From: Leifsonia sp. EB41
GTDB lineage: Bacteria; Actinomycetota; Actinomycetes; Actinomycetales; Microbacteriaceae
Assembly (NCBI RefSeq): GCF_041262565.1
Contig: NZ_JBGCCJ010000001.1
Location: 682,001-746,000 of the forward strand
Length of the DNA stretch: 64,000 nucleotides
Reading direction: 5' to 3'
In this document: positions 19,218-54,620 of the stretch, in pieces
Layout of the letters: each line of letters begins with the position of its first letter
How positions within the stretch are numbered: position 1 is the first letter of the stretch
Made by a program: the position numbers and the translations under genes
The notes under the pieces: generated by a model
The model's input: the letters and a program-made list of their open reading frames with translations, nothing else
Database searches by the model: none
Told to the model about the DNA's origin: nothing

Positions 19218-19282
19218 CGCTCATTCGTGCCGAATGTGCACAATGGCGCCGCCAAAGGCGACATTCGGCACGAATGTGAGCG
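19218..19282. repeat. 55-bp palindromic element, copy 1 (core 19222-19276)
   Basis: Two 15-bp units, CATTCGTGCCGAATG (19222-19236) and its inverse CATTCGGCACGAATG (19262-19276), are separated by 25 bp. The outer flanks CGCTC and GAGCG also pair, with a 2-base bulge. The right half, from GCCAAAGGCG to the end, is the same as in the copy at 53476-53530. The element fills the junction of two converging genes. Confidence 0.9.
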
Positions 19283-19285
19283 CAG

Positions 19286-22200
19286 CTACACCAAGCAGTT
19301 GGGGCCGAGGAGGCCTTTGAGCTCGCCGTAGAGGTCCGGCGACACCTTCACGGGCCTCGGGACCTCGAACACCCGCGCGACCTGGCCCTTGACCAAGCGC
19401 AGGCGCACCTCGCTGTCACCGGGATGCCGCGACAGCACCTCGGCGAGCGAAGCCACGGTGTCGGTCGTCGCTCGCTGGTCGGCCATCGTGATCATGAGGG
19501 TGCCGATGTCGTCGGCCTGGCCGAGGTCGGGCACCATCAGGCTGAACGCGTGCAGGTTCATCCCGTCGTCGCGCATACTGACGCGCCCGCGCACGACGAC
19601 GATCGAGTCGCCCTGCATCATCGGCGAGAACTCCGTGTACGCCTTGCCCATGAACATGACGGTCATCTCGCCGCCGAAGTCCTCGACCTGGATCATGCCG
19701 TACTGGTTGCCGGACGCCTTCGCCACGCGGTGCTGGACGCTCGTGACGAGCCCGGCGATGACGACGGTGTCGCCGTCCTGCACGCTGTCGGAGGAGAGCA
19801 GCTCAGCGATCGACGTGCTCGCGAGCTTGGCGAGCTGCAGCTCCAGCCCGGCCAGCGGGTGGTCGGAGACGTAGAGCCCGAGCATCTCGCGCTCGAACGC
19901 GAGCTTGTCGCGCTTCACCCACTCGGGGCGGTCGGGGATGTGGTGCTGCGTCTGGTTCTGCTCGTCCTCGCCCCAGAGGCTGTCGAAGTCGAAGCCGACG
20001 TCGCCGTTCGCCTCGCTGCGCTTGATCTTGACCGCGGACTCCACCGCGTCCTCGTGCACCTCCACGAGCGCGCGCCTGGTGTGCCCGAGCGAGTCGAACG
20101 CGCCCGCCTTGATGAGCGACTCGACCGTGCGCTTGTTGGCGGCGTGGACCGGGACCTTGCTGAGGAAGTCGTGGAACGACTCGAACCGGCCCTTCTCCTC
20201 GCGGGCCGCCCGCACGCCGTCCACGACGTTCGCGCCGACATTGCGGACCGCGCCCATGCCGAAGCGGATGTCGGTGCCGACGGCGGCGAAGTACAGGTTG
20301 GACTCGTTGACGTCCGGCGGGAGCACCTTGATGCCCATCCGGCGGCACTCGTTGAGGTAGAGCGCCATCTTGTCCTTGGAGTCGCCGACGCTGGTGAGCA
20401 GCGCGGCCATGTACTCGGCCGGGTAGTGCGCCTTGAGGTATGCCGTCCAGTAGGAGATCACGCCGTAGGCGGCCGAGTGCGCTTTGTTGAACGCGTAGTC
20501 GGAGAACGGCAGCAGGATCTCCCACAGCTTGCCGACGGCGGCCATCGAGAAGCCGCGGTCGACCATGCCCTGCGAGAAGCCCTCGAACTGCTTGTCCAGC
20601 TCGGACTTCTTCTTCTTGCCCATCGCGCGGCGCAGGATGTCGGCCTGCCCGAGCGAGAACCCGGCGACCTTCTGCGCGATGGCCATGACCTGCTCCTGAT
20701 AGATGATCAGGCCGTAGCTGGTCGAGAGGATCTCCGCCAGCGGCTCCGCCAGCTCCGGGTGGATCGGCGTGATGTCCTGCAGCTTGTTCTTGCGCAGCGC
20801 ATAGTTCGTGTGCGAGTTCGCGCCCATCGGACCCGGGCGGTACAGCGCGATGAGCGCCGAGATGTCCTCGAAGTTGTCCGGCTTCATCAGGCGCAGCAGC
20901 GAGCGCATCGGGCCGCCGTCGAGCTGGAACACGCCGAGGGTGTCGCCGCGCGACAGCAGCTCGTAGGCGCCGCGGTCGTCGAGCTCCAGCTCTTCGAGCA
21001 CGAGGTTCTCGCCGCGGTTGTCGCGGATGTTGTCGAGCGCGTCGTTGATGATCGTGAGGTTGCGCAGCCCGAGGAAGTCCATCTTGATCAGGCCGAGCGA
21101 CTCGCAGGCCGGATAGTCGAACTGGGTGACGATCTGGCCGTCCTGCTCGCGCTTCATGATCGGGATGACGTCGATCAGCGGGTCGGACGACATGATGACG
21201 CCCGCCGCGTGCACACCCCACTGGCGCTTGAGGTTCTCGAGGCCGAGCGCGGTGTCGAAGACCGTCTTGGCTTCCGGGTCGCTCTCGACGACCGCGCGGA
21301 TGTCGACGGCCTCCTTGAAGCGCGGGTGCTCCTTGTCGAAGATGCCGGTGAGCGGGATGTCCTTGCCCATGACGGGCGGAGGCATCGCCTTGGTGAGCTT
21401 CTCGCCCATCGAGAACGGGAAGCCGAGCACGCGACCGGAGTCCTTCAGCGCCTGCTTGGCCTTGATGGTGCCGTAGGTGACGATCTGCGCGACACGCTCC
21501 GAGCCGTACTTCTCGGTCACGTACTTGATGACCTCGCCGCGGCGGCGGTCGTCGAAGTCGACGTCGAAGTCGGGCATGGAGACGCGGTCGGGGTTGAGGA
21601 AGCGCTCGAAGATCAGGCCGTGCCGCAGCGGGTCGAGGTCGGTGATCCGCATGGCGTAGGCGGCCATCGAGCCGGCGCCGGAGCCGCGGCCGGGGCCGAC
21701 GCGGATGCCGTTGTTCTTCGACCAGTTGATGAAGTCGGCGACGACGAGGAAGTAGCCGGGGAAGCCCATCTGCGAGATGACGCCGATCTCGTAGTCGGCC
21801 TGCTTGCGGACGTCCTCGGTGATCCCGCCCGGGTAGCGCTCGTGGAGGCCCTTCTCGACCTCCTTGACGAACCAGCTCTGCTCGGTCTCGCCCTCCGGCA
21901 CCGGGAAGCGCGGCATGTAGTTGGCGGCGGTGTCGAACTTCACGTCGACCCGCTCGGCGATCGCCAGCGTGTTGTCGCAGGCGTCCGGGTGGTCGCGGAA
22001 GAGCTGCCGCATCTCCTCCGGCGTCTTGAGGTAGAACTCGTCGGCGTCGAACTTGAAGCGGTTGGGGTCGTCCAGCGTCGAGCCGGACTGCACGCAGAGC
22101 AGTGCCGCATGGCTCTTGGCGTCGGCCGCGTGCGTGTAGTGGAGGTCGTTGGTGGCCACCAGCGGGAGGCCGAGCTCCTTGGCGAGCCGGATCAGGTCGC

Positions 22201-22804
22201 TCATGATCCGGCGCTCGATGCCGAGCCCGTGGTCCATGATCTCGGCGAAGAAGTTCTCCGGGCCGAAGATGTCGCGGAACTCCGCGGCGGCCTTCTTGGC
22301 CTCCTCGTACTGCCCGAGCCGGAGGCGGGTCTGGACCTCGCCGGACGGGCAGCCCGTGGTGGCGATGATGCCCTTCGAGTAGCGGTTCAGCAGCTCGCGG
22401 TCCATGCGCGGCTTGAAGTAGTAGCCCTCGGTGGAGGCGTACGACGAGAGCCGGAAGAGGTTGTGCATGCCCTCGGTCGTCGCCGCGAGCATCGTCATGT
22501 GCGTGTACGCGCCGGAGCCCGACACGTCGTCGCCGCCGCCGTCACCCCAGCGCACGCGGGTCTTGTCGGTGCGGTGGGTGCGCGGGGTCAGGTAGGCCTC
22601 GGTGCCGATGATCGGCTTGATCCCGGCGTCCGTCGCCGTGCGCCAGAAGTCGAACGCGCCGAACATGTTGCCGTGGTCGGTGATCGCGACGGCCGGCATG
22701 CCCTGCTCGACGGCCGCCTCGATGAGCGGCTTGACGCGTGCGGCCCCGTCGAGCATCGAGTACTCGCTGTGGACGTGGAGGTGGACGAAGGAGTCGGTCG
22801 GCAC
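19286..22804 (-). CDS. dnaE: DNA polymerase III alpha subunit DnaE1
   Basis: Replicative DNA polymerase. The 1172-residue protein has an N-terminal PHP domain (FVHLHVHSEYSMLDG), the polymerase core with the catalytic aspartates in MPDFDVDFDDRRR, the (HhH)2 and beta-clamp regions, and a C-terminal OB fold (TVVIAGLVTSVQHR). PHP metal ligands look complete (HLHVHSE, TDHGNMFG), consistent with intrinsic proofreading as in M. tuberculosis DnaE1. GTG start with GGAG seven bases upstream. Same strand as rluD-lspA-wag31, 42 bp after rluD. Confidence 0.97.
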   Translation of the reverse strand: MPTDSFVHLHVHSEYSMLDGAARVKPLIEAAVEQGMPAVAITDHGNMFGAFDFWRTATDAGIKPIIGTEAYLTPRTHRTDKTRVRWGDGGGDDVSGSGAYTHMTMLAATTEGMHNLFRLSSYASTEGYYFKPRMDRELLNRYSKGIIATTGCPSGEVQTRLRLGQYEEAKKAAAEFRDIFGPENFFAEIMDHGLGIERRIMSDLIRLAKELGLPLVATNDLHYTHAADAKSHAALLCVQSGSTLDDPNRFKFDADEFYLKTPEEMRQLFRDHPDACDNTLAIAERVDVKFDTAANYMPRFPVPEGETEQSWFVKEVEKGLHERYPGGITEDVRKQADYEIGVISQMGFPGYFLVVADFINWSKNNGIRVGPGRGSGAGSMAAYAMRITDLDPLRHGLIFERFLNPDRVSMPDFDVDFDDRRRGEVIKYVTEKYGSERVAQIVTYGTIKAKQALKDSGRVLGFPFSMGEKLTKAMPPPVMGKDIPLTGIFDKEHPRFKEAVDIRAVVESDPEAKTVFDTALGLENLKRQWGVHAAGVIMSSDPLIDVIPIMKREQDGQIVTQFDYPACESLGLIKMDFLGLRNLTIINDALDNIRDNRGENLVLEELELDDRGAYELLSRGDTLGVFQLDGGPMRSLLRLMKPDNFEDISALIALYRPGPMGANSHTNYALRKNKLQDITPIHPELAEPLAEILSTSYGLIIYQEQVMAIAQKVAGFSLGQADILRRAMGKKKKSELDKQFEGFSQGMVDRGFSMAAVGKLWEILLPFSDYAFNKAHSAAYGVISYWTAYLKAHYPAEYMAALLTSVGDSKDKMALYLNECRRMGIKVLPPDVNESNLYFAAVGTDIRFGMGAVRNVGANVVDGVRAAREEKGRFESFHDFLSKVPVHAANKRTVESLIKAGAFDSLGHTRRALVEVHEDAVESAVKIKRSEANGDVGFDFDSLWGEDEQNQTQHHIPDRPEWVKRDKLAFEREMLGLYVSDHPLAGLELQLAKLASTSIAELLSSDSVQDGDTVVIAGLVTSVQHRVAKASGNQYGMIQVEDFGGEMTVMFMGKAYTEFSPMMQGDSIVVVRGRVSMRDDGMNLHAFSLMVPDLGQADDIGTLMITMADQRATTDTVASLAEVLSRHPGDSEVRLRLVKGQVARVFEVPRPVKVSPDLYGELKGLLGPNCLV

Positions 22805-22846
22805 TATTGCTCCGGGTCGAGGTGAGGGCTTAAGACTACGTCGGAC

Positions 22847-23767
22847 CTACGACGCTCGGAGCACGTCCAGAGCGTGTTGCAGATCCTCCGGGTAGGTCGT
22901 GGTGAAGGTCACCCACTCCCCCGTCGCCGGGTGGTCGAAGGCGAGCTGGACGGCGTGCAGCCACTGCCGGGTGAGCCCCAGCCGCGCGGACAGCGCGGGG
23001 TCGGCGCCGTACATCGCGTCGCCGGCGCACGGGTGGCGCTGGGCCGCCATGTGCACGCGGATCTGGTGGGTGCGCCCGGTCTCCAGGTGGATCTCCAGCA
23101 GACTCGCGGCCGGGAACGCCTCGATGGTCTCGTAGTGCGTCACGGACGGCTTGCCGCCGGCGACGACGGCGAACTTCCAGTCGCTGCGGGGATGCCGCCC
23201 GATCGGCGCGTCGATGGTGCCGGTGAGCGGGTCGGGGTGGCCCTGGACGACCGCGTGGTAGATCTTCTCCACGGTGCGGTCGTGGAAGGCGCGCTTGAGC
23301 ACGGTGTAGGCGTGCTCGGACTTCGCCACGACCATCAGGCCGCTGGTGCCGGCGTCGAGGCGGTGCACGATCCCGGCGCGCTCGGCGGCGCCGGAGGTCG
23401 AGATGCGGAAGCCTGCGGCGGCCAGGGCGCCGAGGACCGTCGGGCCCTCCCAGCCGACCGACGGATGCGCAGCGACCCCGACCGGCTTGTCGATGACCAC
23501 GATGTCGTCGTCGTCGTGCACGATGGTCAGTTCGGGCACCGCGATCGGCACGATGCGGGCCTCCTCGCGCGGCTGCCAGGAGACCTCGAGCCAGGAGCCG
23601 GCGGAGAGCCGGTCGGACTTGCCGGCCTCGCGGCCGTCGACCGTCACGCCGCCGGCCTCGGCCACCTCGGCGGCGAAGCTGCGCGAGAAGCCGAGGAGCT
23701 TGGCGAGGCCCGCGTCGACGCGGGAGCCTTCGAGGCCGTCCGGGACGGGGAGGCTGCGCGACTCCAT
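22847..23767 (-). CDS. RluD-family 23S rRNA pseudouridine synthase
   Basis: Makes pseudouridine in 23S rRNA. There is an N-terminal S4 RNA-binding domain (about 15-75), followed by the RluA/RluD catalytic domain with the active aspartate in [14 protein letters not shown] and the later [10 protein letters not shown] motif. 306 residues, normal for the family; the exact target uridine is not certain. The ATG shares its A with the lspA stop (TGATG). Confidence 0.92.
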
Positions 23768-24372
23768 CAGGGCTGCGGGTTCCGGGGCTCGTGAGCCTCG
23801 GGGCTCGGCTCGGCCTCGACGGTGTCGCCCACCTCGCCGTCCTCGTCCTCCTCCTCCTCGGCGGGCGCCTGGCCGTCGAGGCCGACACCGCGCAGCGTGA
23901 GGATGAGGAACAGCACCATGCTGGAGACGATGGCGACGTCCGCGAGGTTGAAGATGGCCGGCAGCAGCGGGATCTGCAGGAAGTCCACGACGTGCCCGAC
24001 GCCGAAGCCAGGCTCGCGGAACAGCCGGTCGGTCAGGTTGCCGAGCAGGCCGCCGAGCAGCAGGCCGAAGAGGATGGCCCACGCCGTCGAGCGGATGCGC
24101 GGCGCGTACCAGATGACGAAGCCGAGCACGCCGACGCCGACGATCGAGAAGATCCAGGTCGACCCGCTGCCGATGGAGAAGGCCGCGCCCGGGTTCTTGA
24201 CGAAGTGGAGCTGGAGGAGCTGTCCGAGGAGCTGGACCTGCTGGCCCTCGTAGAGGTTCGAGACGACCAGGACCTTGGCGATCTGGTCCAGGAGGTACAC
24301 GCAGAGCGCGACCACCGCCAGGATCACCAAGGCCCTGATGCTGACCTTGGCCCTCGAGGGGCTAGCCTCCAA
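23767..24372 (-). CDS. lspA: Lipoprotein signal peptidase
   Basis: Aspartic membrane peptidase that cleaves lipoprotein signal peptides (for example that of CtaC). Four membrane segments; catalytic aspartates lie in NLTDRLFR and NLADVAI. After the last helix there is a 40-residue tail very rich in Glu and Asp, longer than in most LspA. The start is TTG at 24372 inside the end of wag31; no better in-frame start exists before the first helix, so it is tentative. Confidence 0.9.
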
Positions 24373-25150
24373 AGCCCGGGAAGACCGGAGGCTGGGCGCC
24401 CTGGTCCTGGCCGTCGGAGGAGCCCGCGGGCACCGGGGTGGGGGCGTTGCCGCCGAAGGAGGACGACTGGCTGTCGAGGTCGCGGAGCTGGCCTTCGATG
24501 TAGCCCTTCAGGCCCTGGCGGTAGTCGCGCTCGAAGCCGCGGAGCTCGTCGATGCGGCGCTCGAGGCCCGCACGCTCCTGGTCGAGGGCGCTGATCTGGG
24601 CGCGCTGCTTGGACTCGGCCTCTGCGACGATCCGAGCGGCGGTGGCGTGCCCCTCCGCGATCAGCGCGTCGCGCTTCTCCACGCCCTCGCGGACGTGCTC
24701 CTCGTGCAGGCGGCGCGCGAGCTGGAGGAGGTTGTTGGTCGCGTTCGGGTCGTTCGCGTCGGTGGCGCCGGCGGCGAAGCCCGCTGCGGCGCCCGCGGCG
24801 GCGGCAGGAGCGGCCGGAGCCTGCTGGGCCTGCGCGGCCTGCTGCTGCGCGGCGGCCAGGCGCTGCTTGAGGTCGTCGTTCTCCTGCTGGAGGCGCTGCA
24901 CCTCGCCGTTGTCGGCGGCGGCGGGCGCGGGAGCCGCGGCCTGACCGGAGCCGCCGCTGCGCTGCAGCTCTGCGATGCGCGAGTCGGCGGCCACGAGGCG
25001 CTGCTTGAGCTCGTCGCTCTCCTGGGTCAGTCGTCGGAGCTCGACGACGACCTCGTCGAGGAAGTCGTCGACCTCGTCCTGATCGTAGCCCTCACGGAAT
25101 TTCGTCGGTTGAAACCGCTTGTTGACCACATCTTCCGGAGTCAGCGCCAT
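24362..25150 (-). CDS. wag31: Polar growth protein Wag31/DivIVA
   Basis: Cytoskeletal protein that marks the poles and directs wall growth in actinobacteria. The 262-residue protein has the N-terminal DivIVA domain (MALTPEDVVNKRFQ, EGYDQDEVDDFLDEV), an Ala/Pro/Gln-rich disordered linker (about 75-145), a second long coiled coil (about 150-225) and a Pro/Gly-rich tail. AAGGTGG lies ten bases before the ATG. It is last in the division cluster, as Rv2145c is. Confidence 0.95.
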   Translation of the reverse strand: MALTPEDVVNKRFQPTKFREGYDQDEVDDFLDEVVVELRRLTQESDELKQRLVAADSRIAELQRSGGSGQAAAPAPAAADNGEVQRLQQENDDLKQRLAAAQQQAAQAQQAPAAPAAAAGAAAGFAAGATDANDPNATNNLLQLARRLHEEHVREGVEKRDALIAEGHATAARIVAEAESKQRAQISALDQERAGLERRIDELRGFERDYRQGLKGYIEGQLRDLDSQSSSFGGNAPTPVPAGSSDGQDQGAQPPVFPGFGG

Positions 25151-25310
25151 GAGAAGCCACCTTAGATCTAAAAAGGACGAACAATGAGTGCGTTCAGCCA
25201 ACGCTAGCAAAGTGCACGGCCGCCGCGCACTCCGCCGCACCCGTGGTGCGTCGGCCTCGACCACACTACAACGGCAGCCCAGCCCGACCCCAACCGACGC
25301 TCGCAGTGCG

Positions 25311-25607
25311 TCAGGTGAAACTCAGGGTCACGTAGAGGCCGATGATGACGACCAGCATGGTGAGGCTCCAGCCGAAGTCGATCGCGACCGGCCCCATCGA
25401 CAGCGGAGGGATGATGCGGCGGAAGAACCGGATCGGCGGGTCGGTGACCACGTAGGTCGACTCGGCGAGCACGAGACCGAAGCCGCGCGGGCGCCATTGC
25501 CGCGCGAACGTGCGCACCAGGTCCAGCACGAACCGGGCCCAGAGGACGAAGAAGTAGATCAGCAGGACGTAGTAGAGCACGTTCGCGATGATCGAGACGA
25601 CAAGCAC
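25311..25607 (-). CDS. YggT family membrane protein
   Basis: Small membrane protein of unknown function found next to sepF in most actinobacteria (Rv2146c). With GTG 25607 it has 98 residues and two hydrophobic segments separated by the conserved TDPPIRFFRRIIPP loop. The start is supported by CATACT six bases before the GTG; the six bases between them also read GGAGGG, so an SD role cannot be excluded. The 160 bp downstream, to wag31, hold no further gene. Confidence 0.88.
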   Translation of the reverse strand: MLVVSIIANVLYYVLLIYFFVLWARFVLDLVRTFARQWRPRGFGLVLAESTYVVTDPPIRFFRRIIPPLSMGPVAIDFGWSLTMLVVIIGLYVTLSFT

Positions 25608-25613
25608 CCCTCC

Positions 25614-25619
25614 AGTATG
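25614..25619 (-). promoter_or_regulatory. -10 hexamer CATACT before yggT
   Basis: CATACT, six bases (GGAGGG), then GTG at 25607. The geometry is that of a leaderless promoter. Confidence 0.5.
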
Positions 25620-25680
25620 AACGACCGCGTATGCACGAAAGCGCACCGCCCTGCCGGACGGTGCGCTTTCGAAGGAACGA

Positions 25681-26202
25681 TCAGGCCTGCGCGAAGAAGG
25701 AGGCGTCGACGTCGGCGTCCTGGCCGCCGTGCTCGCCGGAGACGACGACGTGCGACGGCGAGAGCAGGAACACCTTCGGGGTCACCCGCTCGATCTTGCC
25801 GTACAGGCCCTGCGAGAGACCGCTGGCGAAGTCGATGAGGCGGCGGGCGTCGCCCTCGCTCATCTGCGACAGGTTGATGATCACCGGGATGCCCTCGCGG
25901 AAGGACTCGGCGATCGCCTGGGCGTCGCGGTACTGACGGGGGTGGACTGTGAGGATCTCGTTCATTTCCTGTACCGAAACATTCCGTGCGGTGGACGATT
26001 TGCGCAGCGGGGTCACCGGTGCGCGGCCGGCCACGGGAGCGACCGGTGCAGGGTGCGGGACGGGCTGGACGGGCGACGGGGCCGGAGCCTCACGGCGCGG
26101 CTGCTGCACCGGCTGGTGCTGCACCTGCTCGTGCTCGTCGAACTCCAGCTCTTCGTCGGCGAGGCCGAGGTAGACCATCGTCTTCTTCAGCGGGTTGGCC
26201 AT
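25681..26202 (-). CDS. sepF: Cell division protein SepF
   Basis: SepF anchors FtsZ to the membrane; in actinobacteria, which lack FtsA, it is the main anchor. 173 residues: N-terminal amphipathic [18 protein letters not shown], a Pro/Gln-rich linker (about 25-75), and the SepF core (about 78-160, with [20 protein letters not shown]). GGAGGAA sits before ATG 26202. Part of the ftsZ-yggS-sepF-yggT-wag31 series on one strand. Confidence 0.95.
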
Positions 26203-26272
26203 GCGCTTCCTCCGTGTAGACCGGTGCGCCGACGCCTCGCACGCACTGAATGAACCTTCTTCTCTTTCGAGA

Positions 26273-26977
26273 TTAACGAAGGCTCGGCCGATTCCCGGTA
26301 ATGGCGGTGCCGATGCGAAGGTGTGTCGCACCGGCGGCGATGGCCTCGCGGTAGTCCTGGGACATCCCTGCGGAGATGGCGGTGGCCTCCGGAGCGAGTC
26401 CGCGGACCCGCTCGCTGGCGAGGCGGACGCGCTCGAACGCGCGCGACGGCTCCTCGTCCAGCGGGGCTACCGCCATGACGCCGAGCAGGCGGAGGCCGGG
26501 CGTCGCGAGCACATGCTCGACCAGCGGCTCCAGGTCGCGGTCGGCCACGCCGCCACGGCCCGGGTCGTCGGTGAGGTTGAGCTGGACGAACACGTCCACG
26601 TCGGGCGCGTCGTCGAGCTTCAGGGCGTCGACCAGTGCGATCCGGTCGAGCGAGTGGATGACGGCCGCGTAGCGCCGCACCTGCCGCGCCTTCTTGCTCT
26701 GGAGCTGGCCGACGAAGTGCCAGCGCAGGTCGAGATCGGCGAGCTCCGCCGCCTTCTCCTGCGCCTCCTGGTGGCGGTTCTCCCCCACGTCGCGCACGCC
26801 GAGAGCGGCGAGCTCGCGGACGAGCGACGCCGGGTGGAACTTGGTCACCACGATCGTCGTCAGCTCGTCCGAGGAGCGGCCGGCGGCCCGGGCGGCGTCG
26901 GCGACGCCCTCCCGGACCGCGGCGAGCCGCTCCGCGAGCGGGCTACTTGAGGAAGTCGGGGATGTCGAGGTCGTCAT
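26273..26977 (-). CDS. PLP homeostasis protein, YggS/PROSC family
   Basis: Pyridoxal-phosphate binding protein that buffers PLP; it folds like the alanine racemase barrel but has no known enzyme activity. 234 residues, with the PLP lysine in VVTKFHPA and the later signatures [12 protein letters not shown] and [12 protein letters not shown]. The ATG lies 35 bp inside the end of ftsZ, so the two are translationally linked, as in most actinobacteria (Rv2148c). Confidence 0.93.
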
Positions 26978-28121: not shown

Positions 28122-28140
28122 GTCCGGCCTCCACGGGAAC

Positions 28141-28166
28141 CTTCAACCTCAACTCGAGGCTTAAAG
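28141..28166. promoter_or_regulatory. Dyad upstream of ftsZ, candidate FtsR operator
   Basis: A 26-bp imperfect palindrome (CTTCAACC at the left end, reading CTTTAAGCC from the right) lies 20 bp before the ftsZ start. CATACT-like hexamers lie just upstream on the minus strand. MerR regulators bind long dyads of this kind, and an FtsR-like MerR gene is at 62539-63234. The link is inference. Confidence 0.45.
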
Positions 28167-28264
28167 TTATGCTGAGTATGCAATTCTCGATTTCGACGCT
28201 AAGGCCGCAGGGGCCGCTCCCGCCGCAGTTCGCAGGCGTGTCGGCAAATGCGCCGTCAACCTGG

Positions 28265-29278: not shown

Positions 29279-29283
29279 CGCGG

Positions 29284-46195: not shown

Positions 46196-46213
46196 CGGGC
46201 GCGACGCGCCGAA

Positions 46214-46234
46214 GGTCACAGCCGGGTCACAGCC
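46214..46234 (+). promoter_or_regulatory. Direct repeat GGTCACAGCC x2, candidate MtrA site before the kinase gene
   Basis: GGTCACAGCC occurs at 46214 and 46225, an 11-bp period. It contains the same GTCACAGC word as the site before the LysM gene and ends 46 bp before the -10 hexamer of the kinase promoter. Confidence 0.5.
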
Positions 46235-46280
46235 CCGGCGCACACCGGTGTTTTGCAGGTTTCGCGACCGCCCCGTTCCC

Positions 46281-46286
46281 TAGACT
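46281..46286 (+). promoter_or_regulatory. -10 hexamer TAGACT, leaderless kinase promoter
   Basis: TAGACT, six bases (CGATCC), then GTG at 46293. The same hexamer and the next three bases (CGA) occur before the epimerase gene at 55472. Confidence 0.6.
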
Positions 46287-46292
46287 CGATCC

Positions 46293-48194: not shown

Positions 48195-48224
48195 CCCCTA
48201 CCCAAACGCCGAGGGCACAGACGC

Positions 48225-48281
48225 CGAGGGGCACGTAAACGCCCCTAAAACCGGGTTTTAGGGGCGTTTACGTGCCCCTCG
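48225..48281. repeat. 57-bp almost perfect palindrome in a convergent junction
   Basis: Arms of 28 bp (48225-48252 and 48254-48281) around one central base; the arm begins CGAGGGGCACGTAAACGCCC. It is extended by one mismatch to CGTCGAGG-type flanks. It fills the gap between the kinase stop and the DAHP synthase stop. Long for a terminator and without a T-run. Confidence 0.95.
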
Positions 48282-48299
48282 ACGGGACTTCGCGAGGGG

Positions 48300-49670
48300 T
48301 CAGCCTTGGCTGAGCTCCTCGGCGACGAGGAAGGCGAGCTCCAGCGACTGCATGTGGTTCAGTCGCGGGTCGCACAGCGACTCGTAGCGAGTCGCGAGGG
48401 TCTCCTCGTCGATGTGCTCCGAGCCGCCCAGGCATTCCGTGACGTCGTCGCCGGTGAGCTCGACGTGGATGCCGCCCGGGTGCGTGCCCGCGGCGCGGTG
48501 CGCCTCGAAGAAGCCCTGGACCTCGTCCACGACGTCGTCGAAGCGGCGCGTCTTGTAGCCGTTCGGCGTCGTCAGGCCGTTGCCGTGCATCGGGTCGGTG
48601 ACCCACAGCGGGTTGGCGTCGGAGCGCTTCACAGCCTCCAGCAGCGGCGGCAGGGCGTCGCGGATCTTGCCTGCGCCCATCCGGGTGATGAAGGTCAGCC
48701 GGCCGGGCTCGCGGTTCGGGTCGAGCTTGTCGATGAGCTCCAGCATCGTTTCCGCCGTGGTCGCCGGGCCCAGCTTGACGCCGATCGGGTTGCGGACGCG
48801 GGACAGGAAGTCCACGTGCGCGCCGTCGAGGTCGCGGGTGCGCTCGCCGATCCAGACGAAGTGCGCCGACGTGTTGTACGGCGTGCCGGTGCGCGAGTCG
48901 ATGCGGGTCATCGGCCGCTCGTAGTCCATCAGCAGCCCTTCGTGGCTGCTGTAGAACTCGACGCGGGTCAGCTCGTCGAAGTCCGCGCCCGCGGCCTCCA
49001 TGAACTTGATGGCGCGGTCGATCTCGCGGGCCAGGCCTTCGTAGCGCTGGTTGGCCGGGTTCGCCGCGAAGCCCCTGTTCCAGCTGTGCACCTCGCGCAG
49101 GTCGGCGAAGCCACCCTGGGTGAACGCCCGGATCAGGTTCAGCGTGGAGGCGGCCGTGTGGTAGCCCTGGATCAGCCGGCGCGGGTCGGCAGCGCGCGAC
49201 TCCGGCGTGAAGTCGTAGCCGTTGACGATGTCGCCGCGGTAGGCCGGCAGCGTCACATCGCCGCGGGTCTCGGTGTCGCTGGAGCGCGGCTTGGCGAACT
49301 GCCCGGCCATCCGGCCCATCTTGATGACGGGGACCGACGCGCCGTAGGTCAGCACGACCGCCATCTGCAGCACCGTCTTGACGCGGTTGCGGATCTGGTC
49401 GGCCGTCGCTCCCGCGAACGTCTCGGCGCAGTCGCCGCCCTGCAGCAGGAACGCCTTGCCCTCGGCCGCACGGGCGAGCCGGGTACGGAGCTGATCCACC
49501 TCGCCGGCGAACACCAGCGGGGGCAGCGTCGCGATCTCCGCGGACGCCGCTGCGGCAGCCTCCGCGTCGGGCCACTGCGGCTGCTGCTTGATCGGGAGCG
49601 TGCGCCAATAGTCCAGGCCCTCGATCACGGAGTCGTCAGCTTTCACGACGGGATCTGTGGTCTGCAGCAC
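48300..49670 (-). CDS. aroG: DAHP synthase, class II
   Basis: First enzyme of the shikimate pathway (PEP + erythrose 4-phosphate). 456 residues; plant-type class II signatures LLQGGDCAETFA, the KMGRMAGQFAKPRS loop, GFADLREVHSWN, and VTDPMHGNG with metal ligands. In M. tuberculosis this gene (Rv2178c) is also next to the pknL region. GTG start (reads MLQTTDPV); no strong SD. Confidence 0.95.
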   Translation of the reverse strand: MLQTTDPVVKADDSVIEGLDYWRTLPIKQQPQWPDAEAAAAASAEIATLPPLVFAGEVDQLRTRLARAAEGKAFLLQGGDCAETFAGATADQIRNRVKTVLQMAVVLTYGASVPVIKMGRMAGQFAKPRSSDTETRGDVTLPAYRGDIVNGYDFTPESRAADPRRLIQGYHTAASTLNLIRAFTQGGFADLREVHSWNRGFAANPANQRYEGLAREIDRAIKFMEAAGADFDELTRVEFYSSHEGLLMDYERPMTRIDSRTGTPYNTSAHFVWIGERTRDLDGAHVDFLSRVRNPIGVKLGPATTAETMLELIDKLDPNREPGRLTFITRMGAGKIRDALPPLLEAVKRSDANPLWVTDPMHGNGLTTPNGYKTRRFDDVVDEVQGFFEAHRAAGTHPGGIHVELTGDDVTECLGGSEHIDEETLATRYESLCDPRLNHMQSLELAFLVAEELSQG

Positions 49671-49712
49671 TGTTCTGTTTCCGCTCGGTCGGGTGGATTG
49701 GGATAACCGAGC

Positions 49713-50477
49713 CTATCGCGCCGGACGGGCCTCCGGCGCCGAGGGAGCGGATTGTGACGGGACCGCGACCGGCGGCGGGGAGGCCGGGTCGGCGGCGAGC
49801 GCCGCGCGCTTCTCCTTGACCGTGCTGGCGTAGACGTCGACGTACTCCTGCGCGCCCAGGCCGTGCAGCGCGTACATGATCTCGTCGGTGACCGAGCGGA
49901 GGATGAAGCGGTCGCCCTCCATGCCCTCGAACCGGGAGAAGTCGAGCGGCTCCCCGATGACGATGCCGATCCGGCCGATCCGCGGGATGCGGCGGCCGAT
50001 GGGCATGATCTCGGCGGTGTCGATCATCGCGACGGGCACGACGGGGACGCCGGCCTCCAGGATCATCCGCGCGACGCCGGTGCGCCCGCGGTACAGCTTG
50101 CCGTCGGGGCTGCGGGTGCCCTCCGGGTAGATGCCGAGGATCTCGCCGCGCGCCAGGACCGCGAGGCCGGTGTTGAGCGAGGCCTCGGAGGCCTTGCCCC
50201 CCGAGCGGTCGATGGGGAGCTGGCCGGTGGCGTTCATGAACGCTTTGGTCGCCCAGCCCTTCAGGCCGCGCCGGGTGAAGTAGTCGCTCTTGGCGAGGAA
50301 GGAGACGTGCCGGTCGACGACGATCGGCAGGAAGATCGAGTCGATGAACGACAGGTGGTTGCTGGCGAGGATGACCGCGCCGTCGGCGGGAACGTTCTCG
50401 AGGCCGACGACCCACGGGCGGAAGATGCCACGGAGCAACGGCCCCGCGATCAGGTTCTTCATCAGCCAGTAGAACAT
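49713..50477 (-). CDS. 1-acyl-sn-glycerol-3-phosphate acyltransferase family protein
   Basis: Membrane-associated acyltransferase of phospholipid synthesis (PlsC family). 254 residues; catalytic motif NHLSFIDSIF near residue 36 and the acyl-acceptor motif YPEGTRSPDGKLYRG. The C-terminus is Ala/Pro-rich. Same position as Rv2182c. TAGGCT at 50486-50491 lies eight bases before the ATG, so the leader is very short or absent. Confidence 0.9.
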   Translation of the reverse strand: MFYWLMKNLIAGPLLRGIFRPWVVGLENVPADGAVILASNHLSFIDSIFLPIVVDRHVSFLAKSDYFTRRGLKGWATKAFMNATGQLPIDRSGGKASEASLNTGLAVLARGEILGIYPEGTRSPDGKLYRGRTGVARMILEAGVPVVPVAMIDTAEIMPIGRRIPRIGRIGIVIGEPLDFSRFEGMEGDRFILRSVTDEIMYALHGLGAQEYVDVYASTVKEKRAALAADPASPPPVAVPSQSAPSAPEARPAR

Positions 50478-50538
50478 CGATCGAAAGCCTAGTGCCCTGC
50501 TCGGCCCAATGGGAGGACCGGCGCAGGCGAGGACCGGC

Positions 50539-51486
50539 TCAGAGCGCGGCGTGCAGGCGGGCGAGGTCGGCCGCGCCGACCACCCCGGCGTCGTTGACCA
50601 GCTCTGCGATCTTGAACTCCGGCTCCGGGTGGTAGCCGCGTGCAGGGAGGTTCTCCAGGTACGCCTGCCGGATCGGCTCCAGCAGCAGCTCCCCCGCCTG
50701 CGCGACGCCGCCGCCGAAGACGAACAGCTGCGGGTCGAGGACCGCGCCGAGGCTCGCGCAGGCCTGGCCGAGCCAGTCGCCGAGCTGGCGGAGGGCGGCG
50801 AGAGCGCCGGGATCCCCGGCCATGATGAGCCCGGAGATGTCGGAGCCGGTCAGCTCGCCGGTGCGGGTGCGGACGTCCGCGAGCGACTGCCCGATGCCGC
50901 CGGCGTCGGCGAGCTCGTTGGCCATCCGCTGCAGCGCCCGGCCGGAGCCGTACTGCTCGATGCAGCCGTGCGCGCCGCAGCCGCAGGGCAGGCCGCCCGG
51001 GACCACGCGCATGTGACCGATCTCCGCTCCGGCGCCGAAGCCGCCGCGGAACAGCCGGTCGTTGCTGACGATCGCGCCGCCGACGCCGGTGCCGATGGTG
51101 AGGATCACCATGTCGCTGACCAGGCGGCCTGCGCCGTAGCGGAACTCCGCCCAGCCCGCCGCGTTGGCGTCGTTCTCGATGAGCACGGGGAGGTCGATGC
51201 GCTTCTCGAGCTTCTCCCGGAACGGCTCGTGCCGCCAGTTGATGTTCGGGGCGTAGTACACGGTCGACTGTGCCGCGTCGATGAAGCCGGCGGCGGCGAC
51301 GCCGGCGCCCGCGATCTCCTCCGGCCCGTCCGACAGCCGCTCGATCATCGCGACGACGGCGTTCTCGATCTCCTCCGGGCGGCTCGCGTCGGTCGGCACG
51401 CGGTCCTCGCGGACGATCGTGCCGAGCTCGTCGACGACCGCTCCGGCGATCTTGGTCCCGCCGATGTCGATTCCGATGGCATGCAC
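50539..51486 (-). CDS. Glucokinase, ROK family
   Basis: Phosphorylates glucose with ATP (a polyphosphate-using variant cannot be excluded). 315 residues: GIDIGGTKIAGAVVDE phosphate loop, catalytic aspartate in IENDANAAGWAE, the ROK signature with the zinc cysteines in CGCGAHGCIEQY, and FGGGVAQAGE. GTG start with GGAAGGGG upstream. Divergent from fadD across a 162-bp gap in which I see no gene. Confidence 0.92.
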   Translation of the reverse strand: MHAIGIDIGGTKIAGAVVDELGTIVREDRVPTDASRPEEIENAVVAMIERLSDGPEEIAGAGVAAAGFIDAAQSTVYYAPNINWRHEPFREKLEKRIDLPVLIENDANAAGWAEFRYGAGRLVSDMVILTIGTGVGGAIVSNDRLFRGGFGAGAEIGHMRVVPGGLPCGCGAHGCIEQYGSGRALQRMANELADAGGIGQSLADVRTRTGELTGSDISGLIMAGDPGALAALRQLGDWLGQACASLGAVLDPQLFVFGGGVAQAGELLLEPIRQAYLENLPARGYHPEPEFKIAELVNDAGVVGAADLARLHAAL

Positions 51487-51648
51487 AGGCGGGCCCCTTC
51501 CGGATGGGCGTGGGTCGGGCGAAGGTGGAGGGAGCGGACCGGGCTGTCTCGGAAGACTCCCTGCCGCACCATCTAGAGTGTAATCAACCACTGCGAGCCG
51601 GAGCGATTCGGCCCGGACCCCCGCCCGCCCGGTATCGAGGGAGCTACC

Positions 51649-53469
51649 GTGAACCAGTTCGAAACGCCCGTCGTCGTCCCCGCCGACCCGGAGGCCAACG
51701 CGACGGACCTGCTCGTGCAGCGGGTCGCCGCCACCCCGGACGCGCCGCTGTTCAGCCTCCCGGACGGCGACGGCTGGAAGGACGTGACCGCAGCCGAGTT
51801 CCACCGCCAGGTCGTCGCGCTCGCCAAGGGCCTGGTCGCCGCCGGCATCCAGCCGGGCGACATGATCGGCCTGATGTGCAAGACCCGCTACGAGTGGACG
51901 CTGATCGACTTCGCCACCTGGTTCGCCGGGGCCGTGCTCGTGCCGATCTATGAGACATCGTCGCCCGCGCAGGTGCAGTGGAACATGTCCGACTCCGGCG
52001 CGAAGGCCGTCATCCTGGAGACCGCGGAGATGTTCTCCCGGTTCGACGAGGTGCACGCCGACCTGCCGCTCATCCAGGACGTCTGGCAGCTCCACCTGGG
52101 CGACCTGGACAAGCTCGTCGCCGCCGGCGTGGATGTTCCGGACGCCGAGATCGAGCGGCGCAGGAACCTGGCCCGCGGCGAGGACATCGGCACCCTGATC
52201 TACACCTCCGGCTCGACCGGCCGCCCCAAGGGCTGCGTGCTCACCCACTCCAACTTCGTGGAGCTGTCGCGCAATGCCACCGAAGCGCTCGGCGAAGTCC
52301 TGGAGGGCGCCTCCACCCTGCTCTTCATCACGACGGCGCACGTGTTCGCCCGGTTCATCGCGGCGCTCTGCGTCACCGCGGGCGTGAAGGTGGGCCACCA
52401 GGCCGACACCAAGCAGCTCCTGCCCGCGCTCGCGAGCTTCAAGCCGACCTTCCTGCTCGCGGTCCCGCGCGTGTTCGAGAAGGTCTACAACTCGGCCGAG
52501 CAGAAGGCGGAGGCCGGCGGCCGCGGCAAGATCTTCCGCGCGGCCGCCGAGGTCGCCGTCGAGCATTCCAAGGCCGTCGAGGCCGGCTCGGTGCCGTTCG
52601 GCCTCAAGCTCAAGTTCGCGCTCTACGACCGGCTGGTGTTCTCCAAGCTGCGCGCCGCGATGGGCGGCCGCGTGAAGTACGCGGTCTCCGGCTCCGCCCC
52701 GCTCGGCTCCCACCTCGGCCACTTCTTCCACAGCCTCGGCATCAAGATCCTGGAGGGCTACGGCCTCACCGAGACCACGGCGCCCGCGACCGTGAACCGG
52801 CCCGACATGTTCAAGATCGGCACCGTCGGCCCCGCCCTCCCCGGCGTCGACCTCCGGCTGGTCGAGGACGGCGAGATCGAGGTCCGCGGCATCAACGTCT
52901 TCAAGGAGTACTGGAAGAACCCGGAGGCGACGGCCGCGGCGTTCGACGACGGCTGGTTCCGCACCGGCGACCTCGGCTCCTTCGACGCGGACGGCTACCT
53001 GACCATCACCGGCCGCAAGAAGGAGATCATCGTCACCGCCGGCGGCAAGAACGTTTCCCCCGCCGTGCTGGAGGATCCGATCCGCGCCAACCCGCTGGTC
53101 GGCCAGGTGATCGTCGTCGGCGACCAGAAGCCGTTCATCGCGGCGCTGGTGACGCTCGACACCGAGATGCTGCCGACCTGGCTGGCGAACAACGGCGAGG
53201 ACAAGGACATGACCCTCGCCGAGGCGTCCGTGAACCCGGCGGTGAACGCCGAGATCCAGCGGGCGATCGACGCGGCCAACGAGGGCGTCTCCCGCGCGGA
53301 GAGCATCCGCAAGTTCGTCATCCTCGCCACGGAGCTGACGGAGGCCAGCGGCCACCTCACGCCCAAGCTGAGCATCAAGCGCAACGTCATCCTCGCCGAC
53401 TTCGCCGACGTGATCGACGGCGTCTACAGCGGCAACCCCAGCACGCAAGGAATCTCGCTCGCCCACTAG
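51649..53469 (+). CDS. Long-chain fatty acid-CoA ligase (AMP-forming)
   Basis: Activates fatty acids to acyl-CoA. 606 residues; AMP-binding signature IYTSGSTGRPKGCVLTH, the GYGLTETTAPATVN motif, and the C-terminal hinge TGDLGSFDADGYLTITGRKKE with a catalytic lysine region ASGHLTPKLSIKR. Position and length match FadD15 (Rv2187). GTG start with GGGAG eight bases upstream. Its stop TAG lies in a CTAG shared with the gene on the other strand. Confidence 0.94.
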   Translation: MNQFETPVVVPADPEANATDLLVQRVAATPDAPLFSLPDGDGWKDVTAAEFHRQVVALAKGLVAAGIQPGDMIGLMCKTRYEWTLIDFATWFAGAVLVPIYETSSPAQVQWNMSDSGAKAVILETAEMFSRFDEVHADLPLIQDVWQLHLGDLDKLVAAGVDVPDAEIERRRNLARGEDIGTLIYTSGSTGRPKGCVLTHSNFVELSRNATEALGEVLEGASTLLFITTAHVFARFIAALCVTAGVKVGHQADTKQLLPALASFKPTFLLAVPRVFEKVYNSAEQKAEAGGRGKIFRAAAEVAVEHSKAVEAGSVPFGLKLKFALYDRLVFSKLRAAMGGRVKYAVSGSAPLGSHLGHFFHSLGIKILEGYGLTETTAPATVNRPDMFKIGTVGPALPGVDLRLVEDGEIEVRGINVFKEYWKNPEATAAAFDDGWFRTGDLGSFDADGYLTITGRKKEIIVTAGGKNVSPAVLEDPIRANPLVGQVIVVGDQKPFIAALVTLDTEMLPTWLANNGEDKDMTLAEASVNPAVNAEIQRAIDAANEGVSRAESIRKFVILATELTEASGHLTPKLSIKRNVILADFADVIDGVYSGNPSTQGISLAH

Positions 53470-54446
53470 GCACGCAATTCGTGCCGAATGTCGCCTTTGG
53501 TGGCGCCAAAGGCGACATTCGGCACGAATCTGTTGAGTCGTTCCGCGAAAGCGTCGCGATCTCCGAAGAGGTCGTGCGCAGTCACGCGGACGACGCGCCA
53601 GTCGTGCGCCTCGAGAAGGTCCCGCCGTGCGATGTCGGCATGCCACTGCCGCCGTTCCACGCGGTGTCCGTCACCTTCGTACTCGAACGCGAGTCGGCGC
53701 TCCGGGATGCTGAGATCCGGATGCAGCACGAGACGACGCCCGACGGAAACCGGACGGTTGACCTGGAGACCTCTGTAGCCCTGATCCTCCAGGAAGAGAC
53801 GCATCAGTGTCTCGGGACGCGAATCCGCGCCCGGACGAATTCGAGGGAGCGCCCAGGCACGCGCCCGTGCACCCTTGGTGCGGTTCAGCGCTGCCGATGC
53901 TGCGGCGAGCTCGTCGAGAGTTGCGAGCGCGGGGCGTTTGCGGGCGCCGACGAGATGGTCGCCCACGGCGACCAGGTCCTCGCGGGTGAGCACTCCGGAG
54001 AGCTGGCACCACAGGTGGGCCGGAGAGCTCACCGGTAGGCCATCGACTACGGTGCCGCTCACCGCGCCCAGACTGTGACCCACCACTCCGCGAGCCCGCG
54101 GGGGCGACCGCGGGAACTCCACGGCCACGTGCAGCGGCCCGTCCTGAGCCGATTCCGGAAGCGGGACCCCGAGAAGCACTGCGGCGGTCTCGTGGCTGAA
54201 GTAGACACCTTCGGTCAACAGCGGGAGGTAGGCGAGGCATCGTTCTCGGACCGTGATCGCCGGAATCGTCAGGTGAACGCCGTGGAAGGGATTGTGGAGG
54301 TCTCGCGCACGCAGGCGGGAGGCACTCACTCCGGCGCGACGCGCCTCCGACGGCGTGAAGGCGACACCGGCCAAGAGACCGGAAGCGGTTGTGGCGTTCG
54401 CATGCACCCATCGTGGCCGCCGCGCTCCGCGCCCCGTCGCCTGCAT
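53466..54446 (-). CDS. DUF559-type protein with AbiEi-like N-terminal part
   Basis: Function unknown. 326 residues: an N-terminal helix-turn-helix-like part (about 15-45, AFTPSEARRAGVSASRL), a middle part like AbiEi-type antitoxin domains (LAYLPLLTEGVYFSHETAAVLLG), and a C-terminal Vsr-like endonuclease fold of DUF559 type (ETLMRLFLEDQGYRGL, HPDLSIPERRLAFEYEGDGH). Catalytic competence is uncertain. Common in Microbacteriaceae as a lone accessory gene. The last 20 codons (RFVPNVAFGATKGD and on) are encoded by a palindromic repeat. Start taken at ATG 54446; a GTG 11-14 codons later is possible. Confidence 0.7.
   Translation of the reverse strand: MQATGRGARRPRWVHANATTASGLLAGVAFTPSEARRAGVSASRLRARDLHNPFHGVHLTIPAITVRERCLAYLPLLTEGVYFSHETAAVLLGVPLPESAQDGPLHVAVEFPRSPPRARGVVGHSLGAVSGTVVDGLPVSSPAHLWCQLSGVLTREDLVAVGDHLVGARKRPALATLDELAAASAALNRTKGARARAWALPRIRPGADSRPETLMRLFLEDQGYRGLQVNRPVSVGRRLVLHPDLSIPERRLAFEYEGDGHRVERRQWHADIARRDLLEAHDWRVVRVTAHDLFGDRDAFAERLNRFVPNVAFGATKGDIRHELRA
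53476..53530. repeat. 55-bp palindromic element, copy 2
   Basis: Perfect 24-bp arms (53477-53500 and 53506-53529) around TGGCG. It has the same 15-25-15 layout as the copy at 19222-19276 and shares about 25 bp of identical sequence with it. It lies 7 bp past the fadD stop and wholly inside the 3' coding end of the DUF559 gene. Confidence 0.95.
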
Positions 54447-54500
54447 CCAAACCCGTGGACAACTCACATTCTCCACAGCCGCACGCGCGCACTCCCAGCA

Positions 54501-54620
54501 CATTCGGCACGAATGTTGCGAATAGCGCTCGCTTACGCACCATTCGGCACGAATGCGCCGCGACGCATTCGGCACGAATGTCGCGAAAGGCGCGGGCATT
54601 CGCGACATTCGGCACGAATG
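54501..54620. repeat. Two adjacent copies of the 55-bp element (copies 3 and 4)
   Basis: CATTCGGCACGAATG occurs without change at 54501, 54541, 54566 and 54606, all in the same orientation. The pairs 54501/54541 and 54566/54606 each have the 40-bp step seen at the other loci, and a 10-bp linker joins them. The 25-bp inner parts are related to each other. The array starts 4 bp beyond the epimerase stop and ends 54 bp before the DUF559 start. Confidence 0.92.

Follow-up and report, generated by a model that had tools for sequence, protein, structure and literature searches.

Dispersed hairpins in Leifsonia and a candidate cognate Vsr/MTES_1575-like nuclease: a possible REP/RAYT-like system on an unrelated enzyme

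REP-type repeats are usually explained by the HUH RAYTs, members of a single enzyme superfamily. In two descriptions (PMC3116915, PMC3733652), the REP/REPIN sequences with their RAYTs, and the REPtrons, appear as short extragenic hairpins present in tens to hundreds of copies and in several classes, each class being tied to a specific enzyme gene that is sometimes itself flanked by the repeat. Both traits recur in the elements discussed here. According to one of these sources, a GTAG/CGTC tetranucleotide tag lies at the foot of the REP hairpin, while the TIRtrons resemble the present case in that every enzyme gene has a bracketing repeat of its own and only some of these repeats belong to dispersed families (PMC3733652). 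On the enzyme side, published work describes the MTES_1575 REase as a Vsr-family protein fused to HEPN and wHTH (PMC3710099), and makes a DUF559 Vsr-like nuclease responsible for an SOS response in Caulobacter cells without a methyltransferase (PMC12907096).

The window considered here is the whole stretch of 64,000 nucleotides from Leifsonia sp. EB41 (contig NZ_JBGCCJ010000001.1, positions 682,001 to 746,000). It contains four copies of one element, together with a nuclease gene and the two genes at its borders:

19222..19276, no strand: dialect-1 hairpin element, halves inverted; fills the gap between the convergent genes 18719-19213 (+) and 19286-22804 (-)
53476..53530, no strand: dialect-1 hairpin, halves inverted; 3' side of the nuclease gene, overlapping its C-terminal codons, and just past the stop of gene 51649-53469
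54501..54555, no strand: dialect-1 hairpin, halves direct; 5' side of the nuclease gene
54566..54620, no strand: dialect-1 hairpin, halves direct; in the 5' flank of the nuclease gene, with the stop of gene 54624-55472 (-) 3 bp away
53466..54446, minus strand: nuclease gene flanked by elements; 326 aa without the stop, start proposed at 54446 (MQATGR), reading frame open to 54608
51649..53469, plus strand: left border gene, AMP-binding enzyme; edge of the hairpin-nuclease-hairpin unit
54624..55472, minus strand: right border gene, NAD-dependent epimerase family; edge of the hairpin-nuclease-hairpin unit

The original prediction had described these copies as eight half-sites forming four pairs with a 40-bp step, inverted at 19222 and 53476 and direct at 54501 and 54566, and all of this was recovered. 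The half-site CATTCGNNNCGAATG has 8 matches in the window at up to 2 mismatches, against a mean of 2.59 and a maximum of 6 in shuffled sequence. The inner columns that had been called constant (T1, G10, G12, C17, G22 and C23) are so in the window's four copies but not among 296 distinct pairs. Likewise, the proposed layout of a 15-bp palindrome, 25 bp and a second 15-bp palindrome captures real pairs, but a hairpin of 55-57 bp describes the unit better. Folding gives a single long hairpin for every 55-bp element, with z between -5.0 and -10.9 for eight single-element folds on both strands. An Rfam search of the window matched no family. Covariation between the arms was clear in G001 (47 exact pairs; 0/2000 shuffles as high) and weak in the source genome G000 (50 of 53 pairs; 56.9% paired vs 53.2% shuffled, with 55/2000 shuffles as high). 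Pooling the genomes gave 57% vs 43.6%, which was dropped as proof of selection on the hairpin since it is confounded by the dialects; for this reason, and given the weak G000 test, covariation does not serve as main support. A CGA end shared by the hairpins was also considered and dropped, being present in only 19/85.

The copies form one dispersed family, as the original prediction had it, and are numerous across the genome. The exact sequence ATTCGGCACGAAT occurs 101 times (59 on the plus and 42 on the minus strand; reversed-pattern control 0), and there are 55 exact NNN-pairs at the 40-bp step, or 66 with up to 2 mismatches. Clusters with 20-, 40-, 65/66- and 88-bp spacings are found in the source genome and its relatives. 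ATTCG pairs with up to 2 mismatches are present in 23/28 Leifsonia genomes, at 0 to 351 pairs per genome. Exact ATTCG pairs were found in 6/299 Microbacteriaceae genomes, every one of them Leifsonia; of 85 genera sampled in the family, only this one has them. Neither outcome named by the original prediction as its refutation was thus observed. A search of viral contigs for the pair pattern found none. The palindrome is also present, in an irregular array, in L135, a MAG labelled Bacteroidia.

An ortholog of the nuclease is encoded in 24/28 Leifsonia genomes; ATTCG pairs accompany it in 23 of these 24 and occur in 0/4 genomes without it. The exception, G004, has the ortholog and no ATTCG pairs, and different palindromes occupy the same places. 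In G012 and G014 the entire hairpin-nuclease-hairpin unit is absent and the left and right border genes adjoin. The C-terminus of the window protein is a Vsr/MTES_1575/DUF559-like PD-(D/E)XK domain, and its residues 80-197 are weakly AbiEi-like. The protein resembles the Vsr-like/DUF559/MTES_1575 group at scores below the Pfam cut-offs (PF18741, 29.8 bits, E 6.4e-7, cut-off 38.2; DUF559, 18.3 bits, cut-off 20.6), and a sequence search of the PDB with it returned no match. Within its family the residues around the presumed acidic active site of the PD-(D/E)XK type are conserved: S209, E212, R216, D244, Y256, G258, H261, D271 and R274 are invariant in 95/95 rows and E255 is kept in 90/95. With a dN/dS of 0.12-0.17 in nine pairs, the nuclease is under purifying selection. 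Homologs are carried by 101/150 Microbacteriaceae genomes, in 62/85 genera, and by Arthrobacter.

Most of the homolog loci compared are bracketed by repeats that match each other. A flank match was defined as a score above the 99th percentile of 1500 random cross-genome pairs (exceeded by 13/1500), and by this measure a homolog's own 5' and 3' flanks match in 51/70 loci, from 33/42 genomes. When paralogs of one genome were swapped, 1/108 matched; ordinary genes gave 0/270 in five genomes of four other genera and 3/226 in the element-rich G007. All three Arthrobacter plasmid homologs (3/3; two strains, another family) are flanked by hairpins that match each other, and in other Microbacteriaceae genera most of the matching repeats are hairpins and have their own dialects. 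The remaining 19/70 loci lack a significant flank match, some for technical reasons. A strict hairpin score, with the shuffled maximum under the cut, found long hairpins on both flanks in only 28 of 73 homolog loci, on one flank in 29 and on none in 16; the case therefore rests on the flank-match test. The two top cross-genome flank scores, 164 and 114, both involve L300 and exceed or rival own scores.

The palindromic 15-bp half is one sequence dialect among several. Palindromic halves are a trait of the dialect-1 group, other dialects being plain hairpins, and the source genome has four nuclease homologs with four dialects. Two of these are dispersed in it, one as the 55 exact pairs and one as 51 hairpins (up to 3 mismatches), and each also flanks its own homolog. 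Hairpins of other dialects lie in the window as well:

8765..8827, no strand: second-dialect hairpin, GAGGGGACGCAACACGCCG; the same dialect is found on both sides of the nuclease paralog located at genome position 252557
8831..8886, no strand: further-dialect hairpin, TAGCTGACAG...
48225..48281, no strand: hairpin of 57 bp in a convergent gap, CGAGGGGCACGTAAACGCCCC dialect; the dialect is also found at three sites of the relative G007

Dispersal is seen in some lineages. In G033, of another genus, there are 15 hairpins of the dialect adjoining its nuclease, the three nearby ones all on one side. Among other dialects, tested in 80-kb samples of five other genomes, an extra copy was found for only 3/16, which implies that many dialects may not spread and may be confined to their own nuclease.

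A joint change of enzyme and dialect between close relatives is seen at one syntenic site: in G000 and G007 the borders are 88-94% identical, the nucleases 56%, and the dialects wholly different. It was expected that the G007 nuclease at this syntenic dialect-2 site would carry the dispersed G007 dialect CGAGGGGCACGTAAACGCC; this failed, and the nuclease's own dialect was found nowhere else in 410 kb. Within Leifsonia, the flanks of nuclease-1 are ATTTG-type in G009, G020, G021, G024 and G025 (irregular in G024 and G025), genomes in which ATTCGGCACGAAT is dispersed too. One concerted change was considered for such clade dialects and dropped, because in G021 the ATTTG-type and ATTCGGCACGAAT dialects are dispersed side by side (with 7/20 of the G021 windows chosen at ATTCG-type sites already known). 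It is safer to see here a turnover between dialects that share a genome.

Direct signs of movement were looked for and none was found. MITEs are similar in being small non-coding elements dispersed near genes; unlike them, the present copies have no target-site duplication of 4 bp (0/16 for dialect-1 and 0/30 for dialect-2) or more. A 3-bp direct repeat adjoins 2/30 copies vs 0.5 expected, inverted repeats directly at the flanks are within the shuffle range, and exact element junctions are hidden by intergenic divergence between relatives. PD-(D/E)XK enzymes hydrolyse, and are not known to bring about transposition by themselves. Mobilisation of the hairpins by the nuclease is what we infer. 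By eye, the interiors of the listed 40-bp arrays are similar to each other, which the unique spacers of a CRISPR array are not.

With dispersal in some lineages, matching repeats, conserved residues, purifying selection, one joint change and placement at gene 3' ends in hand, we consider it probable that the 55-57-bp hairpins are a repeat family with a cognate trans-acting Vsr/MTES_1575-like nuclease, a REP/RAYT-like system on an unrelated enzyme. The full unit would be hairpin-nuclease-hairpin, and single hairpins its non-coding offspring. Nuclease lineages would own their dialects, enzyme and hairpin evolving or being replaced together. The N-terminal half of the protein may recognise the dialect and the Vsr-like domain may nick at or near the hairpin, after which repair copying, by gene conversion or template switching and not by HUH strand transfer, could spread hairpins and cassettes. 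Copies would then persist at gene 3' ends, either being tolerated there or acting as bidirectional terminators.

Another explanation is that convergent genes of the host use the hairpins to terminate transcription or to protect mRNA 3' ends, with an incidental nuclease and dialects spread by ordinary recombination. The original prediction had placed every copy at a gene 3' end, which is true in the window, with the nuance that 53476-53530 codes for the C-terminal end of the minus-strand gene. Genome copies agree with such a role: counted by eye, 41 of 45 examined are no more than 31 bp away from a predicted stop codon, and 31/45 are in convergent gaps by automatic calls, or 29 after correction of two near a nuclease that the gene finder missed, against a background (gaps of at least 20 bp) of 32/181 in G007 stretches and 6/43 in the window. 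The folds are very stable, and some other species carry unrelated hairpins in the same gap, as if any long hairpin sufficed. However, no T-tract terminator was found at 53300-54800, where three of the four window elements lie, and a host role leaves unexplained both the locus-specific matching flanks (51/70 homologs vs 0/270 other genes) and the joint change of nuclease and dialect; we hold it to be unlikely. Decidedly unlikely, in our judgement, is a defence or addiction module with a DNA-attacking nuclease, whose cognate hairpins serve as self marks or restrain it, forcing the two to change together. It would suit the Vsr-type and AbiEi-like similarity, the several divergent homologs with distinct dialects per genome and the joint change at one locus; yet the AbiEi match, the only one PADLOC gave for the window protein, is weak (17.7 bits), and many dialects perhaps have bracketing copies alone, which would be poor genome-wide marks of self.

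The palindromic halves, which occur in either orientation, could also suggest sites for a nucleoid or segregation protein, a dimer reading regularly spaced 13-bp palindromes in double-stranded DNA. Phased arrays of 20 and 40 bp in some species fit this, as does an interior symmetry that mostly reflects a common consensus, pair covariation being weak in the source genome. A copy number of 0 to 351 inside one genus and the restriction of palindromic halves to this dialect group, the others being plain hairpins, make it highly improbable. Ordinary REP/BIME elements moved by a RAYT were the nearest idea of the original prediction, which had also seen no RAYT. The resemblance in copy number, extragenic position and hairpin form holds, and the elements are REP-like in behaviour, but the candidate partner gene between its own copies encodes a Vsr/MTES_1575-like nuclease, not a RAYT. 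PF01797, the Y1 transposase family, matches in 0/28 Leifsonia genomes vs 5/14 control genomes; by eye, GTAG adjoins the hairpin foot in 0/46 copies (16 dialect-1, 30 dialect-2) and CGTC in 1/46. This already disfavoured reading is barely credible.

Returning to the hairpins with their cognate nuclease, the system differs from REP/RAYT in having a Vsr/MTES_1575-like PD-(D/E)XK nuclease in place of an HUH/Y1 transposase, and a single 55-57-bp hairpin without a GTAG tag, with several homolog-dialect pairs per genome. TIRtrons combine a tyrosine transposase with terminal inverted repeats, whereas an unrelated nuclease is found here with mostly self-complementary hairpins. The Caulobacter text uses neither 'hairpin' nor 'palindrom-' (PMC12907096); the gene here is tied to matching hairpins. 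In the open-licence literature outside preprints, mostly at the level of titles and abstracts, no paper was found that connects palindromic repeats with DUF559, Vsr or MTES_1575 proteins. We lean, with some reserve, towards a hitherto unnamed class of actinobacterial DNA, mobile or self-propagating, in which hairpins and dialect-specific Vsr/MTES_1575-type nucleases would form co-evolving lock-and-key pairs, swappable as cassettes, some of the nucleases having seeded hairpins by the tens to hundreds at the ends of genes, a PD-(D/E)XK counterpart of REP/RAYT reached by convergence.

Nature supplies many enzyme-dialect pairs on which sequence-specific recognition of hairpins can be tested directly, and the locus that differs in both parts between close relatives is a natural exchange experiment. 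If the proposal is true, the arrangement of a hairpin plus a cognate nuclease would have evolved more than once, in unrelated nuclease families, and the large set of DUF559/MTES_1575-like proteins that so far lack a known role would gain a suggested function.

The eight occurrences of CATTCGGCACGAATG or its inverse in the window were all confirmed, forming four pairs with a 40-bp step (19222/19262, 53476/53516, 54501/54541 and 54566/54606). At up to two mismatches the window holds eight matches to CATTCGGCACGAATG, against a shuffle mean of 2.59 and a shuffle maximum of 6. The expectation that many more copies would exist genome-wide was borne out, as the whole genome of the strain (G000) carries 55 exact pairs at the 40-bp step, or 66 at up to two mismatches; exact ATTCGGCACGAAT occurs 101 times and the reversed control pattern 0 times. 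Pairs at up to two mismatches are found in 23 of the 28 Leifsonia genomes compared (G000-G027), with 4 to 351 per genome, and five have none. Across the family, exact pairs are confined to 6 of 299 genomes, every one Leifsonia (1/85 genera), which speaks against the original refuting case of the same sequence in distant genera. Among the matches listed in a separate pattern scan, two lie outside Leifsonia by name, in a Microbacterium record (L081) and in a MAG labelled Bacteroidia (L135); a search of viral contigs for the pair pattern gave no match. The L135 match (1087-1366) consists of irregularly arrayed ATTCGGNNCGAAT-type palindromes whose kinship to the Leifsonia element is doubtful. In G022, the genome with 351 pairs (e.g. 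contig C10 13852-14104), and in record L088, TCA/TGA palindromes repeat in long arrays with a step of exactly 40 bp, a satellite-like growth of one sequence version, or dialect.

The original layout of two 15-bp palindromes around 25 bp holds for the pairing and its step, but from folding it was evident that every 55-bp element forms a single long hairpin (-30 to -48 kcal/mol, z -5.0 to -10.9 in eight single-element folds), with the palindromes as its stem foot. Covariation of pairs is weak within G000 (56.9% vs 53.2%; 55/2000 shuffles as high; 50 of 53 listed pairs) and clear within G001 (62.5% vs 54.9%; 0/2000; 47 pairs). Besides the ATTCG type (dialect 1), at least three more dialects are represented by hairpins in the window.

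Further hairpins and the nuclease gene of the window
8765-8827, strong hairpin at the 3' end of a gene; its dialect, GAGGGGACGCAACACGCCG, is also the one bracketing the nuclease paralog at genome position 252557
8831-8886, strong hairpin of a further dialect beside the preceding one, at the same gene 3' end
48225-48281, hairpin of 57 bp in a gap between convergent genes; CGAGGGGCACGTAAACGCCCC dialect
53466-54446, minus strand, nuclease gene, 326 aa from the proposed start; bracketed by three of the four window elements (53476-53530, 54501-54555, 54566-54620)

The CGAGGGGCACGTAAACGCCCC dialect occupies three sites in G007, a close relative, where G000 has another dialect. Junctions were read at site A (53470) in 28/28 Leifsonia genomes and at site B (54623) in 24/28. 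By eye, the palindromes at site A are kept in 24/28 genomes with the sequence altered on both sides.

Forms of the palindromes at site A
TGC/GCA centres: G000, G001, G002, G006, G007, G013, G018
TCA/TGA centres: G008, G011, G017, G023
ATTTG forms: G009, G020, G021; irregular in G024, G025
Third palindrome at a 20-bp step: G019; less perfect in G010, G016, G026

The gene between these elements escaped a codon-usage gene finder trained on the window, and its last codons are formed by the hairpin itself (RFVPNV...). In its C-terminal part, Pfam matches fall below the cut-offs (MTES_1575, 29.8 bits against 38.2; DUF559, 18.3 against 20.6). PADLOC gave a weak AbiEi match at residues 80-197, and searches of NCBIfam and PDB sequences with the protein gave no match. 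The MTES_1575 nuclease is described as Vsr-family in the portion of the source consulted (PMC3710099). Presumed active-site residues are conserved: among 30 positions checked, S209, E212, R216, D244, Y256, G258, H261, D271 and R274 are invariant in 95/95 aligned rows (two from the window protein and 93 from others). Nine ortholog pairs have dN/dS of 0.12-0.17, indicating purifying selection. A 29% homolog is encoded in a short human-faecal record labelled Bacteriophage sp. (MT837503.1, 5022-5930).

Within Leifsonia, gene and elements occur together. An ortholog was found in 24/28 genomes, and 23 of these 24 also carry ATTCG pairs, against none of the four without it (G003, G012, G014, G027), although shared ancestry means that this is not 28 independent tests. 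The exception, G004, carries other palindromes in both positions. The border genes (51649-53469, plus strand, and 54624-55472, minus strand, in the window) adjoin in G012 and G014, with 18 and 12 bases between their stop codons as counted in the sequences, so the hairpin-gene-hairpin unit is there present or absent as a whole. G012 has at least one distant nuclease paralog elsewhere.

Beyond the genus, protein search found homologs in 101/150 Microbacteriaceae genomes and 62/85 genera, with one to eight listed per genome. Seventy loci were examined (the 30 best matches and 40 picked from the homolog listing), and many have matching hairpins on both sides, unlike those of most other loci. With the threshold at the 99th percentile of 1500 random cross-genome pairs, a locus's own 5' and 3' flanks match in 51/70 loci, from 33/42 genomes, compared with 1/108 for swapped flanks of different paralogs in one genome; ordinary genes gave 0/270 in five genomes of four other genera and 3/226 in element-rich G007. 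Matching is locus-specific. Thirteen of the 1500 cross-genome pairs exceed the threshold, and the highest (164) is above every own score (maximum 130). A stricter long-hairpin test of 73 loci found hairpins in both flanks of 28, one flank of 29 and neither of 16. The 19 flank-test misses include the window gene, since its protein match extends as far as the 3' element, and locus L271, yet the latter has three hairpins of one dialect on one side. Outside the family, homologs on plasmids of two Arthrobacter strains (32-35% identity) are flanked on both sides by matching hairpins in 3/3 cases. L081 encodes a 44% homolog between two 40-bp-step hairpins, the left one degenerate, and a paralog in the G021 samples lies between matching 75-bp repeats.

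A single genome may hold several such pairings. In G000, four homologs score above the search threshold, and each lies between hairpins of a dialect of its own. Two of these dialects are dispersed: that of the window and CGAGGGGCACGTTGTTGTCACTT (dialect 2), with 51 matches to its 57-bp hairpin pattern at up to three mismatches. A broader half-site pattern of the CGAGGGGCACGTTGTTGTCACTT group (one mismatch allowed; 0 to 2 matches for reversed-pattern controls) counts 100 in G000, 178 in G022, 163 in G017 and 90 in G008, and 1 and 2 in the close relatives G006 and G007. G033, of another genus, has 15 hairpins of the dialect beside its nuclease; the search that showed this matched in 3/10 genomes, both matches in G154 being its bracketing copies. 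Dispersal is not universal: 80-kb samples of the own genome held an extra copy for 3/16 dialects, a weak test since it found none of the 15 G033 copies either.

Comparison with G007 points to gain, loss and joint change. Fifteen loci of each dispersed dialect of G000 were mapped onto G007 stretches; six of dialect 1 and seven of dialect 2 did not map. The nine mapped dialect-1 loci (eight sites) are occupied at five sites and empty at three. Among the eight dialect-2 loci, five have no hairpin in G007 (one checked in full) and three have one that shares the outer stem but differs in the inner stem. Intergenic divergence is too great to define junctions, and no 4-bp target duplication, a feature named among the original checks, was seen around 46 copies. 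Around the dialect-2 nuclease, the bordering stretches of G000 share 88-94% identity with those of G006/G007 (81% for the G006 stretch that includes the nuclease). The nucleases themselves, in contrast, share 56% identity and are bracketed by hairpins of different dialects, a joint change of enzyme and hairpin. Our own prediction that G007's dispersed dialect would bracket its nuclease there failed; another dialect does, seen nowhere else in 410 kb.

The elements reside at gene ends. Automatic gene calls placed 31 of 45 elements of the two G000 dialects between convergent genes, corrected to 29 because copies 736502 and 736567 are really tandem, the nuclease gene having been missed by the gene finder. 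For comparison, convergent gaps make up 32/181 of intergenic gaps of at least 20 bp in G007 stretches, themselves chosen near element sites, and 6/43 in the window. The original statement that all lie at gene 3' ends holds for the four copies of the window, and of the 45 elements 41 have, by count, a predicted stop codon within 31 bp. The exceptions are one divergent copy, the outer member of a tandem pair and two copies that overlap predicted coding sequence. At site C (19213-19286), orthologous places in five genomes (G010, G016, G024, G012, G022) have unrelated hairpin families, e.g. of CCGAGTGG type, or nothing. Such positions would suit hairpins that are pure terminators, but we consider this unlikely, and no T-tract terminator was found at 53300-54800. 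Terminator activity may explain the retention of copies at gene ends and is compatible with our main reading.

That reading, a repeat family that propagates in partnership with a cognate nuclease, is the best supported and probably correct. The nuclease would recognise its hairpin dialect, perhaps via its N-terminal half, the Vsr-like domain would nick at the hairpin, and hairpins would spread by repair copying. It is improbable that gene and hairpins form a defence or addiction module, and very improbable that the elements are protein-binding arrays.

A hydrolytic nuclease is not known to form a covalent intermediate, which makes RAYT-type strand transfer unlikely. The original remark that no RAYT is visible extends to the genus, with a Y1 transposase in 0/28 Leifsonia genomes versus 5/14 controls. 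As far as the portions consulted describe REP/RAYT and TIRtron systems (PMC3116915; PMC3733652), the partnership works like them, in keeping with REP/BIME-like elements as the nearest idea, but it lacks what defines them, a Y1 enzyme and a GTAG tag. That an enzyme gene may be bracketed by its own repeat is already known in general. Searches of open-licence PMC papers gave no report of an association between such repeats and this enzyme, and the pairing of the two is therefore probably new.
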